Source: Parvularcula sp. LCG005 (GTDB taxonomy: Bacteria > Pseudomonadota > Alphaproteobacteria > Caulobacterales > Parvularculaceae). Taken from it: a DNA stretch of 64,000 nucleotides. The translations under genes and the position numbers were made by a program. The first letter of the stretch is position 1; the number at the start of each line of letters is the position of its first letter. Below the pieces are notes generated by a model, which saw only the letters and a list, made by a program, of their open reading frames with translations, had not been told where the DNA came from and did not search any database. Shown one piece after another: positions 8,943 to 16,843 of this stretch. The DNA lies in contig NZ_CP136758.1 of the NCBI RefSeq assembly GCF_032930845.1, forward strand, positions 2,743,001-2,807,000, read 5' to 3'.

Positions 8943-10049
8943 ATGTTGTTTTTCCTGATCGGTGGCCTTGTCGTCCTGGTGGTGGTGGCCGTTCTGCTGC
9001 GCCCGTTCTGGTCCGTGGCGGCAAGCGACGATGCCCGAGACCGCGAGATCACGATCTATACCGACCAACTGGCGGAAGTGGATCGGGACCTTGACCGGGG
9101 GGTGATCAACGAGGCGGAGGCGCAATCAGCACGCACGGAAATCGAACGCCGCCTGTTATCTGCAGCCCGACGGGCAGATGATGTTTCCGCCAAGCCTTCT
9201 CGTCCCTTGCGGGCTGGTCTTGCTGTCGCGGTGGCGGTGCTCCCGCTTCTGGCTGTCATCGTTTACGGGCAGATTGGCGCCCCGGGTCAGAAAGCAGAAC
9301 CGTTTGCCAGTCGCACGACACCGGCGCAGATCCCTGGCCTGCGAGCAGGCCTGTCGGATGCAGAACAGATCGCCGCGTTGTCGGAGCACCTTGCGACCGT
9401 ACCAGACGATGTTGAAGCCTTGCGCATGCTGGCGCGGGCACATGTCCGCATGGGGAATTATCAACCGGCACTGGACGCGCTGAGAACAGCGAACCGGGTG
9501 GTGGACGGTCAGGATATCAGCCTGTCCGGTGAATATGCGGAGATCATGGTCATTGCCAATGATGGCACGGTGACGGCGCCCGCGCGGCAGATTTTCACTG
9601 CCATACAGGAGGCGGCGCCTGACAACCCTCAGGCCGCGTTCTATCTGGCCCTCGCCCTCGCCCAAGACGGACAGACAGAAGATGCTCTGACACGACTCCG
9701 CGAACTGCGTGACCGTTCAGATTCAGATGCGCCATGGATGTCGGCAGTCGCTGGCCTCATCAACGCGCTGGAAGCCCCCGTCGCCCCCGCACTCGATCCG
9801 GATACGGCAGACGCCGTGATTAGGGACATGAGCCCCGCCGAACAGCAGGCCTTTATCGAACAGATGGTGGGCCGACTGGAAGACCGGCTGGAGGAACAGC
9901 CGGGAAATCTGGAAGGATGGCGACGCCTGGCGCAGGCCTATGAAGTGCTCGGCCGTGCGGAGGACGCCCAGCGGGCTTATGCACAGATTCTGAAGATTGC
10001 GCCGGATGATGAGGAGGCCTCAGCCCGGCTCAACACCGCTGCGGACTAG
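8943..10049 (+). CDS. ccmI: CcmI/CycH cytochrome c biogenesis TPR protein
   Basis: CcmI is an inner-membrane chaperone that holds apocytochrome c for the CcmF-CcmH heme-ligation complex. The chosen ATG gives 368 residues starting MLFFLIGGLVVLVVVAVLLR, the first of two membrane helices; the open frame upstream adds a non-helical basic segment and is rejected. Next comes a coiled-coil cytoplasmic loop typical of the family (YTDQLAEVDRDLDRGVINEAEA, then ARTEIERRLL), a second helix near residues 85-105, and TPR repeats to the end (LRMLARAHVRMGNYQPALDAL; LEGWRRLAQAYEVLG). Its TAG stop overlaps the atpC stop in a CTAG palindrome. Confidence 0.92.
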   Translation: MLFFLIGGLVVLVVVAVLLRPFWSVAASDDARDREITIYTDQLAEVDRDLDRGVINEAEAQSARTEIERRLLSAARRADDVSAKPSRPLRAGLAVAVAVLPLLAVIVYGQIGAPGQKAEPFASRTTPAQIPGLRAGLSDAEQIAALSEHLATVPDDVEALRMLARAHVRMGNYQPALDALRTANRVVDGQDISLSGEYAEIMVIANDGTVTAPARQIFTAIQEAAPDNPQAAFYLALALAQDGQTEDALTRLRELRDRSDSDAPWMSAVAGLINALEAPVAPALDPDTADAVIRDMSPAEQQAFIEQMVGRLEDRLEEQPGNLEGWRRLAQAYEVLGRAEDAQRAYAQILKIAPDDEEASARLNTAAD

Positions 10050-10432
10050 ACAGTCCGTAAAAGCGCAGCGGCGCGGTCAGCGTTGATGCGGTCTTCGGGG
10101 CTCAGACCGCCATCAGCGACCTGTGCCGCAATGGTTGCTTTTTCCGCTGCTAGACGGTCGCCCGTCAGCTCGGATTCAGGAACTGCCACTTCAGCAAGAA
10201 TGGTCAGGCCCGCCGCCGTGACATCCGCGAAACCGCCGCGAACATAGATCCGTTTGGTAGAGGATCCCTCGTCGATCACGACAAAACCGGGAGAAAGCGT
10301 CGACATGATGGGGGCGCTGCCGACCATCACCTGAAAAAGGCCTTCGGCGCCTGGCACGAGAACGGACTCAGCCTCTCCAGAGAACAATTCGCGCTCAGGG
10401 GAAACGAGTGAAAAGTGCAAGCGATCAGCCAC
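10046..10432 (-). CDS. atpC: ATP synthase F1 epsilon subunit
   Basis: The 128-residue epsilon subunit links F1 to the rotor and inhibits ATP hydrolysis. It has the N-terminal beta-sandwich (FSLVSPERELFSGEAESVLVPGAEG, with the conserved G-G-x-hydrophobic region, then GGFADVTAAGLTILAE) and a short C-terminal helical hairpin. It is not next to atpD: a small membrane protein, a lipoprotein gene and a terminator intervene, so atpC must be transcribed from its own or the lipoprotein's promoter. The start MADRLHFSLVSPE is standard. Confidence 0.93.
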   Translation of the reverse strand: MADRLHFSLVSPERELFSGEAESVLVPGAEGLFQVMVGSAPIMSTLSPGFVVIDEGSSTKRIYVRGGFADVTAAGLTILAEVAVPESELTGDRLAAEKATIAAQVADGGLSPEDRINADRAAALLRTV

Positions 10433-10520
10433 GGGCCATTACTCCAAAAGGCGGGAAACTCGCGCTCTATAAAGAATGAGGCGTGATGGGGCTAGCCCCA
10501 GTCAGACGAAATCGACCTGA

Positions 10521-10688
10521 TCAGGCAGTCGCGCCGGAGAGATTGCTGACAATACCGACAACCAACATCAGCGAGACGCCAGACATGGCCAGAAGACCGG
10601 AATAAACGATCCAGCGGCTCTTCACGGCCTTCAGCTCATCAGCTTTCAGGCCCATCGAAATCAGAATATTATCAAGTTGCTGTGTCAT
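10521..10688 (-). CDS. Small single-helix membrane protein, unknown function
   Basis: A 55-residue protein beginning MTQQLDNILISMGLKADELK and ending in one membrane helix (WIVYSGLLAMSGVSLMLVVGIVSNL). The open frame continues upstream to a TTG but that part looks non-coding, so the internal ATG is preferred (GGCGAGAG lies upstream). It sits between atpC and a lipoprotein gene. I do not recognise a family. A regulatory or assembly role for ATP synthase could be imagined from position only. Confidence 0.55.
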   Translation of the reverse strand: MTQQLDNILISMGLKADELKAVKSRWIVYSGLLAMSGVSLMLVVGIVSNLSGATA

Positions 10689-10876
10689 GCCGATATAACT
10701 CTCGCCTGGCCCCTCCAGTTCCCGAAGGATTGGTAAGGATGGGGCCCAGACCCTTGCATGAAATGCTCGCGCCCCCATGGCGCGGACGCATCTCATGCTG
10801 TCTGAAAAGTCATATAAGGACAAATCTTATCGATTAAAGGCAATAAATCGCAACACAGTCGTGCGGTTTATAGCGG

Positions 10877-11335
10877 CTAGCCGCGATATCCGATCTTGTC
10901 GCCATAGTCCGCATAAACAGAACGGACGGCGAAGCCGTCATACTCCGCCGCTTGTTCGGGCGTTGCGAACATGATGGCGACCCGGATCACCGGCAGGTTG
11001 CGCGCGCGGCTTTCATCACCCCAATTGCGCATACCCCCCGTCCAGACGCCGGGCGACAAAAGTGCATATTCAGCCAGTTCGGATTCGGACAGGTCCCTGT
11101 CGTCCAGTTCGACACCCAGGACGACGAAATGGTCAAAGCCATTTTGCTCAGTCAGTTCAGCCGCCCGCACCATGGCGATATTACGAGCCGTCTCGAAACT
11201 CATCGCACGGCCTTCAATCAGATAGCGCGTGTCGGTGATCTTCGTGTCGGTATACCCATTACCGCCCGCACTCGGACCGTAGGTCGAACAGGCTGCCATC
11301 AGCGCCAGCAGTGCCAAAGATATAAAACGTCGCAT
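10877..11335 (-). CDS. CC0125/CC1285-type lipoprotein
   Basis: A 152-residue secreted lipoprotein. Lipobox LMAAC places the lipidated cysteine at residue 16. The mature part contains GYTDTKITDTRYLIEGRA, then NIAMVRAAELTEQNGFDHFVVLG, the recognisable core of the family named after Caulobacter CC0125/CC1285; function unknown. It lies between the atpD terminator and the small membrane protein, on the same strand as the atp genes, so it probably carries its own promoter and may cotranscribe with atpC. Confidence 0.8.
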   Translation of the reverse strand: MRRFISLALLALMAACSTYGPSAGGNGYTDTKITDTRYLIEGRAMSFETARNIAMVRAAELTEQNGFDHFVVLGVELDDRDLSESELAEYALLSPGVWTGGMRNWGDESRARNLPVIRVAIMFATPEQAAEYDGFAVRSVYADYGDKIGYRG

Positions 11336-11413
11336 TGCTCTCTCCCGTGCTTGCCGATGTCATTGACGGCTTTCCGGTCAGCAGCGTGACCCACAACCTG
11401 TGACTGTGCAACA

Positions 11414-11444
11414 AAAAACCCCGCGCCAGCGGCACGGGGTTTTT
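11414..11444 (-). terminator. Intrinsic terminator after atpD
   Basis: Outer ten-pair stem AAAAACCCCG/CGGGGTTTTT with an inner GCC-AGC-GGC hairpin, 25 bases after the atpD stop. The A-rich and T-rich sides make it work in both directions. Confidence 0.88.
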
Positions 11445-11468
11445 CTGTTCTGATAAATCCAGAAGAGC

Positions 11469-12923
<1,455 letters not shown>

Positions 12924-12967: not shown

Positions 12968-13846
12968 TCAGACGCTTTCAGCACCCGCAATAATTTCGAC
13001 CAGTTCGGTCGTGATCTGGGCTTGCCGTGCCCGGTTGTACTGAAGGTTCAGCTTGTCGATCAGCTCGCCCGCATTTCGCGTGGCATTGTCCATGGCTGCC
13101 ATGGAGGCGGCCTGTTCCGATGCCACGTTTTCAAGCAGCGCACGGAAAATCTGTACCGCCACGTAGCGAGGCAGCAGCGTTTCGAGAATCGCCTCTTCGC
13201 TAGGCTCATACTCGTAAGGCGCCGTCGCACCCGTCCCTTTTGAGCTTGCAGGCGGCTGGGCCGGGATGATCTGGTTTGCTGTCGGGATCTGGGCGACCAC
13301 TGATTTGTAGCGACCGAAGAACACCGTCGCCTTGTCGAACTCGCCCGCCTCATAACGATTCAGAAGATCATCGGCGATCATCTTGGCTTCGTCGAAGCCG
13401 ATCTTCTTCCTGTCCTTGAAGTCGATGTGCTTGACGACAAGGTGCTTATAAAGGCGTGACAGCTGCTCATAGCCCTTACGGCCAATACAGTAGAGCTTGA
13501 CCGTCTTGCCCTCGCCCTGAAGCCGGACGATGTGCTCACGCGCCAACCGCACGATCGACGAGTTGAAGGCACCGCAAAGGCCACGATCAGCCGTCGCGAC
13601 GACAAGCAGGTGCGTCTTGTTCTCACCCGTGCCGGTCAGCAGTTTCGGGCCCGGCGCACCTTCGATCATGCCAGCAGCCAGATTGCCCAGCACGTTCTCC
13701 ATACGCTCAGCATAAGGACGGGCAGCTGTCGCCGCCTCTTCTGCGCGGCGCAGTTTGGCGGCGGCCACCATCTGCTTGGCCTTGGTGATCTTCTGGGTCG
13801 ATTTGACCGAGCCGATCCGGTTTTTAAGGTCTTTCAAAGAAGGCAT
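12968..13846 (-). CDS. atpG: ATP synthase F1 gamma subunit
   Basis: The 292-residue central shaft of F1. Starts MPSLKDLKNRIGSVKSTQKI and ends RQAQITTELVEIIAGAES, the two long helices that form the rotating coiled coil. The conserved TADRGLCGAFNSSI block is near residue 85. It is followed after 71 bases by atpD and preceded, after only three bases, by a lipoprotein gene inserted between atpA and atpG. Confidence 0.97.
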   Translation of the reverse strand: MPSLKDLKNRIGSVKSTQKITKAKQMVAAAKLRRAEEAATAARPYAERMENVLGNLAAGMIEGAPGPKLLTGTGENKTHLLVVATADRGLCGAFNSSIVRLAREHIVRLQGEGKTVKLYCIGRKGYEQLSRLYKHLVVKHIDFKDRKKIGFDEAKMIADDLLNRYEAGEFDKATVFFGRYKSVVAQIPTANQIIPAQPPASSKGTGATAPYEYEPSEEAILETLLPRYVAVQIFRALLENVASEQAASMAAMDNATRNAGELIDKLNLQYNRARQAQITTELVEIIAGAESV

Positions 13847-13849
13847 GGC

Positions 13850-14659
13850 TTAATTCGTTTTCTCCAAAGCATCATAACAGCCGGGATCGTACGCTGCGAC
13901 GCAAGTATCTAAGGTCGTAATGAAGTCCGCGATCTCTGGGATTTTCTTGGCTGCCGCCAGAACAAATGGGCGCACCACTTCATAATCTGCAGTAAGTTCA
14001 GCTTCGCTACTATGCCTTGTCACCCAATGGGCCGACGACTCAGTACCAGCAATCCACGAAACACTTGTGCCGTCATAAGCAACCGAATCGGGATCGAGAG
14101 GGACAAATCGCTGCTGCTCGAAGATTTTTTTAAAATCGATACTGTCAAAAATCTCGGCTATTTCGTCTTCACCCACGTCAGTATTGAAATGCTCGGTCGG
14201 CCACAGGATAGTTTTAAACCGATCACGGCAAAAAGCTTCTTCAAGCTCATCAAAATCGTCATCCGCGCATGGGTTCGAATCCAATCGACGTGCGTAGAGC
14301 ACAGCGTCGGTATCGAACTCGCCCTCGTTATATCCATACCCCGGCTTCCTGATCCAGAACGCAGAAATAGCGATGGCGCGGTGAAACGATGGCTCGATGA
14401 TGACAGTCAGATGTTTCTCCACAGTATCAGGATTTAATCGATGACCAACTTTCTGGTATTCATCGTGAAGAAATGTAAGCTGGAAGAGAGCTGTGCTGCG
14501 TTCGACGGACTGTCGCTCCCAGACTGCTTGGTCTTCCAGACTCATATCAAAAATCGAATCTACATCACTGGATGAAGTGCTCGTGGCACACGCCATCAGT
14601 ACCGGGAGCAATAGCCCCCAAGCAACAACAGCGCGCATATATCCAAGAACGTTTTTCAT
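13850..14659 (-). CDS. Hypothetical lipoprotein inserted between atpA and atpG
   Basis: About 269 residues with no family I recognise. A signal peptide (GYMRAVVAWGLLLPVLMACATSTS, split here by its lipobox LMAC) indicates an outer- or inner-membrane lipoprotein. The mature part is acidic, with cysteines in NPCADDDFDELEEAFC and near the C-terminus (DTCVAAYDPGCYD), and holds a few aromatic-rich segments. A TTG further upstream would overlap the atpA end less naturally; the ATG used here gives a clean signal peptide, and a later ATG (MRAVV) is also possible. Base composition is visibly less GC-rich than atpA and atpG, suggesting later insertion. It starts 14 bases after atpA and ends three bases before atpG, so it must be cotranscribed with them. 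Confidence 0.75.
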   Translation of the reverse strand: MKNVLGYMRAVVAWGLLLPVLMACATSTSSSDVDSIFDMSLEDQAVWERQSVERSTALFQLTFLHDEYQKVGHRLNPDTVEKHLTVIIEPSFHRAIAISAFWIRKPGYGYNEGEFDTDAVLYARRLDSNPCADDDFDELEEAFCRDRFKTILWPTEHFNTDVGEDEIAEIFDSIDFKKIFEQQRFVPLDPDSVAYDGTSVSWIAGTESSAHWVTRHSSEAELTADYEVVRPFVLAAAKKIPEIADFITTLDTCVAAYDPGCYDALEKTN

Positions 14660-14673
14660 CCAACAAGGCAACT

Positions 14674-16206
14674 TTACGCAAAGTTCTTGGCGAAGGTCGC
14701 CAGGATGTCTTTCAGCTTGGCTTCGAGCTCGTCAGAGACTTTCTGCTCGCTTCGGATCGTCGAGAGGACATCCGAATGGCTCGCATGCATGTGACGCAGC
14801 AGCTCTTCTTCAAAGCGGCCGACCTTGTCGACGGCGACTTTGTCGAGATAGCCGCGCGTACCGGCATAGATCACGACGACCTGCTCTTCGACCTGTAGCG
14901 GCGAGTATTGCGGCTGCTTGAGAAGCTCAGTCAGGCGCGCACCGCGGTTCAGGGTCGCCTGCGTTGCCGCATCGAGGTCCGAACCGAACTGGGCGAAGGC
15001 CGCAAGCTCACGATACTGGGCAAGCTCGCCCTTGATCTTGCCAGCCACCTGCTTCATCGCCTTGATCTGGGCGGCCGAGCCCACGCGGGACACGGACAGA
15101 CCCACGTTCACGGCGGGGCGAATGCCCTGATAGAACAGGTCGGTTTCAAGGAAGATCTGACCGTCGGTGATCGAGATCACGTTGGTTGGAATATAGGCGG
15201 ACACGTCGTTCGCCTGGGTTTCAATGATCGGCAGGGCCGTCAGCGAGCCTGAGCCGTAATTCTCGTTCAGCTTCGCCGCACGCTCGAGAAGGCGGGAGTG
15301 AAGATAGAAAACGTCGCCCGGATAGGCTTCGCGTCCTGGTGGACGACGCAGCAGCAGCGACATCTGACGATAGGAGACGGCCTGTTTGGACAGGTCATCA
15401 TAGACGATGACGGCGTGCATGCCGTTGTCGCGGAAATACTCGCCCATGGCGCAGCCAGCGAATGGCGCGAGGAACTGCAGCGGGGCAGGCTCGGACGCGG
15501 TCGCGGCGACGACGATGGTGTAGTCGAGCGCGCCATTGTCCTCGAGCGTCTTGACGATCTGGGCGACCGTTGAACGCTTCTGGCCGATGGCGACATAGAT
15601 ACAGAACAGCTTGCCCGAATCATCAGCTGCCGCCTGGTTTGGCTCTTTCTGGTTGAGCATGGCGTCGATGCAGATCGCGGTCTTGCCGGTCTGACGGTCG
15701 CCAATGACCAGCTCGCGCTGGCCGCGGCCAACAGGGATCATGGCGTCAATGGCCTTGATCCCGGTCTGCACAGGCTCGTGCACGGATTTACGCGGCAGGA
15801 TGCCCGGTGCCTTCACGTCAACGACCCGGCGCTCTTCATACATGATCGGGCCTTTGCCATCGATCGGGTTGCCGAGCGGGTCCACGACGCGGCCCAGAAG
15901 GCCTTTGCCGACGGGCACGTCCACGATCGAGTTCGTGCGCTTGACGGTCGCACCCTCTTTAATATCGCGGTCGTCACCGAAGATCACGACGCCGACATTG
16001 TCGGCTTCGAGGTTCAGCGCCATGCCTTTAACGCCGCCGTCAAACTCCACCATCTCACCCGCCTGGACGTTGTCCAGACCGAAGATGCGAGCAATACCGT
16101 CGCCGACGGAAAGCACTTGGCCGATCTCGGAAACTTCAGCTTCTTTGCCAAAGTCCTTGATCTGTTGTTTCAGGATCGAGCTGATTTCAGCCGCATTCAA
16201 TTCCAT
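14674..16206 (-). CDS. atpA: ATP synthase F1 alpha subunit
   Basis: A 510-residue non-catalytic nucleotide-binding subunit of F1. Start [16 protein letters not shown] is canonical. Walker A GDRQTGKT lies near residue 170, followed by the [16 protein letters not shown] block, and the arginine-finger region [13 protein letters not shown] near residue 367. It is four bases downstream of atpH and is separated from atpG by the inserted lipoprotein gene. Confidence 0.98.
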
Positions 16207-16210
16207 GGGA

Positions 16211-16759
16211 TCAGGCCTCTTTCAGGGTCTGCTGTAGACGATTGAGTTTTGTACGGAGCGAGGAGTCCACCATCCGGCTACCGACCTTGACGATCAGACC
16301 GCCCAGAAGCGAGGGATCCACGCTGGTCACCAGATTGACGGCCTTACCGACCGAAGATTCGATTTGTGCCCGCAGGGCCTTTGTCTGCTCGTCGCTCAAT
16401 GGACGCGCGCTGACGGCCTCGGCACTCACCTCACCGCGATGCGCGGCCGCCATGCGATGGAAGGCAGTGATGATGCCGGGCAGCACCGAGATGCGATTAT
16501 TCCGGCCAAGCAGGGCGATCAGGTTCTGGGTCAGCTGCTGTGCGCCCTGGGCCTGAGCGATCGCCGTGAAGGCGGCTGTCTTGCTCTCTGATGAGAAAAT
16601 GGGCGACTGCGCCACGCTGCGCAGCTCAGCACTATCTGCCAGCGCTTTTTCAAGCGCAGTCAGATCAGCTTCGAGCGCCTCGAGTGAATTTTCGTCACGG
16701 GCGAGCTCAAAGAAGGCCGTCGCGTATCGTTCAGCGACGTCGGACCGGGCATCGGCCAT
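16211..16759 (-). CDS. atpH: ATP synthase F1 delta subunit
   Basis: The 182-residue peripheral-stalk subunit that ties F1 to F0. The start [20 protein letters not shown] is chosen over a longer frame because it matches the family N-terminus and has GGAGG nine bases upstream. The C-terminal domain includes [27 protein letters not shown] (in two parts), the conserved delta signature. It is the first gene of the F1 block; F0 genes are absent here, as is usual in Alphaproteobacteria. Confidence 0.95.
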
Positions 16760-16816
16760 GGGGAGGATCCTCCGACAGGGGCCCAGCGTGCGATCGCGAG
16801 GCTGACATAAAGCTAG

Positions 16817-16843
16817 AAAAAGTGGGGTGGCTACCATCCCCAC
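16817..16843 (-). terminator. Terminator-like hairpin in the atpH leader
   Basis: On the minus strand, GTGGGG-A-TGG / CCA-CCCCAC forms a nine-pair stem with one bulged A and a three-base loop, followed by TTTTTC. No minus-strand gene ends upstream, so it lies in the 5' leader of the atpHAGD unit, just after a promoter-like sequence. Confidence 0.5.

Follow-up and report, generated by a model that had tools for sequence, protein, structure and literature searches.

The F1 genes of ATP synthase in Parvularcula sp. LCG005 (G000, a genome in a single 3.08-Mb contig) are interrupted between atpA and atpG by an additional reading frame, which we refer to as the guest gene. Its position raises three questions: whether it is a genuine gene, how it came to lie at a junction that a sequence-only reading had taken to be almost invariant, and whether its product has any role in ATP synthase.

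A predicted lipoprotein gene between atpA and atpG

The F1 genes were identified by Pfam within the 64,000-nucleotide stretch analysed here (the window), where they and the guest gene lie on the reverse strand in the order atpH (F1 delta, Pfam OSCP; 16211–16843), atpA (F1 alpha; 14674–16206), guest (protein P0001; 13850–14659), atpG (F1 gamma; 12968–13846) and atpD (F1 beta; 11469–12896). The guest reading frame encodes 269 amino acids from an ATG, or 273 from an alternative TTG start at 14671. The atpA stop codon (14674–14676) is followed by 14 bases, AGTTGCCTTGTTGG (14660–14673), that contain no Shine-Dalgarno sequence, and then by the guest ATG; the guest stop codon TAA (13850–13852) is followed by GCC (13847–13849) and the atpG ATG. 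The sequence-only reading, which gave these two spacings as 14 and 3 bases, is exact on this point.

Several features bear on whether this is a functional gene. First, its GC content (0.487) and GC3 (0.489), compared with 0.58–0.61 in the F1 neighbours, are the lowest among the 42 reading frames of at least 150 amino acids in a rough ORF call of the 64-kb window, in agreement with its earlier description as less GC-rich. Second, the codon-usage comparison proposed with that description ranks the annotated frame first of the six, but with a weak score (−0.02, against 0.35 for atpG). Third, the frame is open for 270 codons, whereas shuffling the atpA–atpG gap 2000 times never produced more than 201 codons without a stop. 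Fourth, the frame is kept in a homologue of 27–28% identity in another genome (G018, discussed below). The low GC content, the weak codon score and the near absence of a Shine-Dalgarno sequence (see below) might be taken as signs of a non-translated spacer or a decaying pseudogene, but the length of the open frame, its conservation together with a C-terminal motif among homologues, and an intact signal peptide and lipobox make such an explanation very improbable.

The N-terminus (MKNV...LLLPVLMAC) has the appearance of a signal peptide ending in a lipobox with its cysteine, as judged by pattern and by eye; the lipobox L-M-A-C occupies residues 21–24 (14588–14599, reverse strand). The product is thus, as first proposed, a predicted lipoprotein; it is a putative substrate of signal peptidase II that would be lipid-modified, and the alanine at position +2 of the lipobox leads us to expect sorting to the outer membrane. 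The protein was also said to be unrecognised, and it has no significant match in Pfam, NCBIfam or PHROGs, nor any match to the known ATP synthase families of Pfam and NCBIfam. Two candidate similarities were discarded as chance: Pfam Latrotoxin_C (E 0.14, 12.3 bits where 25 are needed) and a CARF profile in a defence library (E 0.0061, no stretch passing).

The signals for expression are unequally distributed across the two junctions. Shine-Dalgarno pairing is nearly nil at either guest start (−0.2 kcal/mol at the TTG and −0.9 at the ATG), and promoter-like sites in the guest region are at chance level. The sequence GGAG within the last codons of the guest gene (13862–13865, reverse strand) is the presumed Shine-Dalgarno sequence of atpG; its spacing of 15 bases from the atpG ATG is long, and its pairing energy is −6.4 kcal/mol, against medians of −4.5 for empty (n = 35) and −4.3 for occupied (n = 15) atpA–atpG junctions of the Parvularculaceae. 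From the short same-strand gaps, the guest gene very probably shares the F1 transcript, and reinitiation after atpA probably yields a low level of guest translation. The sequence-only reading had suggested that the insertion might alter the ratio of atpG to atpA expression, an effect that is conceivable but is not indicated by these data: since the 3′ end of the guest gene supplies the atpG Shine-Dalgarno sequence, the ratio is probably little changed.

A separate observation concerns the distal end of the operon. The gene for the epsilon subunit, atpC (10046–10432), is parted from atpD by a strong terminator-like hairpin and two reading frames (window positions 10046–11469). The hairpin (11405–11450; −26.4 kcal/mol, z −4.9), which a pattern scan for regulatory sites did not list, follows atpD, and between it and atpC are a lipoprotein reading frame (10877–11335) and a small one (10521–10823); atpC probably has its own promoter.

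Occupancy of the atpA–atpG junction in the Parvularculaceae

The guest gene has a narrow distribution. A search with P0001 as a single sequence, which carries out the proposed check for the insertion in related genomes, finds no match in any of nine congeners, and among 61 other Parvularculaceae genomes only one, of another genus (G018), has a match, a weak one (E 7e-9, 28% identity); the matching gene is also located between atpA and atpG. A second match in the LCG005 genome itself (L002) is weak (E 0.285), and scanning of genome contigs with P0001 gave 55 pattern matches, none of which is a relative. In its two closest relatives, G001 and G004, with which it forms a clade (support 99/93), the same junction holds a lipoprotein gene of an unrelated family, so that the junction is occupied throughout this clade of three and a resident gene has either been swapped or the two were gained separately. 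The absence of the guest gene from the closest relatives, and the presence of an empty junction in many others, support the view that it is a foreign-looking, lineage-specific gene.

The junction itself is far from invariant in this family. It was measured in 57 loci from 62 genomes (atpG was not matched in G012, G031, G038 and G043, and the match in G035 was weak); three of these loci (G015, G025 and G055) lie at contig ends or are rearranged. Among the remaining 54 genomes, 15 have at least 350 bp between atpA and atpG, and insertion of the guest gene is thus one case of a recurrent event, contrary to the supposition of near invariance. The neighbouring atpH–atpA gap is 0–7 bp in all 48 measurable loci. 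At empty atpA–atpG junctions the spacer is mostly 9–26 bp, and most have GGA or AGG soon after the atpA stop codon. The well-supported branches of a tree of atpG and atpD force at least 10 gains or losses of the occupied state, and occupied and empty junctions are found in sister pairs (G018/G011, G006/G008, G059/G060 and G034/G044). Outside the Parvularculaceae such occupancy is sparse: gaps of more than 200 bp are present in 2 of 28 loci of one Caulobacterales family (f4), and in 2 of 30 of another (f2). In a sample of 80 loci across the Alphaproteobacteria (L041 and L042 have no usable gap) they are present in 6 of 78, all of which we assign to the Caulobacterales by title or contig match; in the loci whose titles name other orders the gap does not exceed 117 bp. 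The pattern is thus concentrated in the Parvularculaceae. A junction in one genome (L154, G046) appears to have grown by a different route, since the first part of its 257-bp insert is a degenerate copy of the 5′ end of atpG and the sequence after it is rich in palindromes.

The genes at the occupied junctions belong to several unrelated families. In addition to the guest family itself (G000, G018 and G006), there are a lipoprotein family with the motif GTYDLRPAY/CDC (G001, G004 and G002), I78-inhibitor-like lipoproteins (G014, G056, G057 and G058) and a hexapeptide transferase (G005); the rest are singletons. Lipoproteins predominate: 11 of the 15 match the lipobox pattern, and two near-consensus lipoboxes recognised by eye would raise the number to 13. 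The adjacent atpG–atpD junction has a lipoprotein gene in only one of six cases, the others being OsmC, PhyH, a glycosyltransferase, a methyltransferase with a glycosyltransferase, and one unassigned protein; this comparison (Fisher p 0.046 with 11 of 15, or 0.0055 with 13 of 15) leaves out G003, where the longest reading frame is antisense, and gaps below 400 bp such as that with a cupin in G058.

Some types of gene recur at these junctions in more than one family. Methyltransferase reading frames that look alike by eye are present between atpA and atpG in two Caulobacterales families (L251, and L166 of G058). The atpG–atpD junction holds an OsmC-like gene in 11 of the 28 f4 loci and also in L104 and G013 (L214–L217, L220–L223, L225, L227, L233, L104 and L125), an assignment made by eye except for that of G013, which is from Pfam. 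A gene resembling phytanoyl-CoA dioxygenase (by Pfam in G009) is at the same junction in one Parvularculaceae genome and two others of the Caulobacterales (L122, L104 and L236). In family f2 (L241–L259) many of the atpG–atpD gaps are of 340–473 bp and contain low-complexity basic reading frames.

The predominance of lipoproteins could also reflect an ancient resident of the junction, a single ancestral lipoprotein gene that diverged very fast and was lost many times. The occurrence of the same family at the same site in LCG005 and G018, which are of different genera, accords with this view, as does a CDC lipoprotein at the atpA–atpG junction of another family (L260), the similarity of which is below significance (E 0.058). 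The number of changes demanded by the tree, the inclusion of the unrelated I78 and hexapeptide families among the cargo, and the short spacers at empty sites, most with GGA or AGG, argue instead for repeated entry.

Relatives of the guest protein in other operons

The guest gene was originally described as an orphan, which is too strong, since profile searches recover a distant protein family. Of 398 Caulobacterales genomes, 8 gave relatives with a first profile of 2 members, 14 with one of 9 and 21 with one of 16. We retain 17 members, all exported proteins of 205–274 amino acids sharing a C-terminal motif around C-x-D-G-T ... R-H-x-C-D; the loosest matches (L205–L210) were set aside as being short, close to the threshold or outside any tight operon context. 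The members scanned have no significant match in Pfam or NCBIfam. One of the looser relatives (L205) matches the DUF6438 profile (PF20033) below threshold (E 0.033, 14.9 bits against a gathering score of 30), and P0001 itself does not match this profile.

There are three sites at which members of the family are present three times each. The first is the atpA–atpG junction (G000, G018 and G006); the second is between scoA and scoB (G006, G291 and G100), where the genes abut or overlap by 1–17 bases; and the third is between argF and argB (G034, G041 and G053). The other members lie behind a gene for a PALP enzyme (two in tandem, G023), behind DUF2165 genes (G029 and G032), behind a DUF4440 gene and before ilvC (G369), and behind an amine oxidase gene (G046); one is on the opposite strand to its neighbours (G155) and one is near a contig end (G042). 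Fourteen of the 17 start within 25 bp of an upstream gene on the same strand, compared with 13 of 50 genes in a control taken from a rough ORF call of the single 64-kb window (Fisher p 9e-5); several of the 17 are orthologues that share a site, and when counted by distinct site the proportion is 7 of 9 (p 0.005). Same-strand neighbours lie within 25 bp on both sides of 8 of the 17 members and of 5 of the 50 window genes.

These locations also argue against a function in ATP synthase. The position of the guest gene between those for alpha and gamma, on the same strand and with tight gaps, would suit an accessory, assembly or regulatory factor kept in the operon for its function. The guest gene is, however, missing from all nine congeners rather than present beside the F1 genes across relatives, export is predicted for its product while F1 is cytoplasmic, and its homologues are found in the scoA–scoB, argF–argB and other operons. 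Because of the predicted export and these unrelated operons, association with ATP synthase is unlikely, and we consider it highly improbable that the gene encodes such a factor.

The relationships within the family bear on the age of the gene at this site. The LCG005 and G018 guests group together weakly (67/79), and the G006 atpA–atpG guest groups with those from argF–argB (80/90); although G006 is of the same genus as LCG005, its guest resembles that of LCG005 less than the G018 guest does. This grouping speaks against descent from a resident gene, but the well-supported branches leave room for one origin of all three, and they could descend from a single old resident. Taking this with the evidence from the junction, we regard an ancient resident as rather unlikely, if the least so of the alternatives.

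The other two junctions resemble atpA–atpG in receiving genes of many kinds. Gaps of more than 200 bp are present between scoA and scoB in 8 of 50 measured Parvularculaceae genomes (G052 has no partner gene) and between argF and argB in 17 of 25 measurable loci (L300–L329 and L173; 6 of 31 have no partner gene). The cargo at both is mostly outside the guest family, and that of argF–argB consists of many different single genes. Other housekeeping operon junctions are thus also entered repeatedly by different single genes in the Parvularculaceae.

One family at about seven kinds of junction, with start and stop overlaps and a scattered distribution, could suggest a self-propagating element that moves between operon junctions by a dedicated mechanism. 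No mobile-element signature is seen at the guest locus, however, with neither a recombinase nor a target duplication and no repeats beyond 6-base matches between the two ends of the gene, and protein searches of 50,697 phage and 72,556 plasmid records give no match. The occurrence of unrelated genes in the same junctions favours permissive sites over an actively moving family, and self-propagation seems to us the least probable of the explanations considered.

AlphaFold models point to a possible fold for the family. The models of P0001 (pLDDT 72.5, pTM 0.66) and of the scoA–scoB guest of G291 (pLDDT 79.2, pTM 0.74), which are not fully independent because both were built on the same 16 sequences, have as their best fold match the protein Mago nashi (Z 10.0 and 10.8, respectively; the next unrelated matches are at 4.0 and 5.6), with Mago chains aligned over about 120 residues. 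Foldseek also retrieves Mago nashi with the G291 model (E 1.9e-4); with the P0001 model alone it finds nothing at E ≤ 0.001, the top matches being MHC and proteasome chains with a probability of at most 0.23. The guest family is thus predicted to have a Mago-nashi-like alpha/beta fold. There is no sequence similarity (7–13% identity, and no Mago nashi match in Pfam or PDB sequences), and the guest is a predicted exported bacterial lipoprotein whereas Mago nashi is a nuclear RNA-complex protein.

A probable recurrent guest of housekeeping operons

We favour the interpretation, at a probability of roughly two in three, that the guest gene is a coding gene for an exported lipoprotein that rides on the F1 transcript, has no role in ATP synthase, and belongs to a family of recurrent junction guests. 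The gene would have arrived between atpA and atpG in the lineage leading to LCG005, where the F1 transcript would provide a ready-made promoter. With the atpG Shine-Dalgarno sequence inside its 3′ end and its stop codon abutting the start of atpG, translation of atpG would be kept, and the guest, nearly lacking such a sequence of its own, would probably depend on reinitiation after atpA and be translated weakly. The product may be anchored in the outer membrane and presumably has an envelope function. Its family would be fast-diverging, with genes that settle time and again at junctions within housekeeping operons; in the Parvularculaceae, the junction of atpA and atpG would be a recurrent entry site for single-gene guests, most of them lipoproteins. 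A more general proposal, which we put forward tentatively and think rather unlikely, is that the Caulobacterales contain 'operon nomads', fast-diverging Mago-like exported proteins that lodge in the junctions of operons for essential complexes and pathways (atpA–atpG, scoA–scoB and argF–argB) with start and stop fitted so closely that translation of the host genes is kept.

Price, Arkin and Alm reportedly described in 2006 'ORFan' and 'alien' genes inside operons. The guest gene shares with these its unrecognised product, its tight spacing and its location in an established operon; here, however, different genes have repeatedly entered one junction of an essential operon, and the family of the insert occupies several other housekeeping junctions. 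Within the atp operon itself, a gene X lies between the gamma and beta genes of Rhodobacter (Rhodopseudomonas) blasticus. Like the guest, gene X is an unrelated reading frame inside the F1 gene block, at the gamma–beta rather than the alpha–gamma junction. The 'ORFan' and 'alien' genes of operons are mentioned in PMC10138114, and in PMC4154653 intervening reading frames of atp operons are marked 'X' in the legend to Figure 4 and delta–alpha–gamma is given as a usually conserved block. The literature searched yielded no published account of genes inserted between atpA and atpG in this group.

About a quarter of Parvularculaceae genomes have unrelated genes between alpha and gamma, together with close relatives in which the site is empty, and these constitute natural experiments in how insertions are tolerated at operon junctions and subunit ratios maintained. 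They also counsel caution in assigning function from position, as a reading frame in a core operon is here usually not part of the complex. The guest family, with its Mago-like predicted fold, is without a name in the libraries searched; if the proposal of 'operon nomads' is true, an envelope function would be tied to core metabolic expression.
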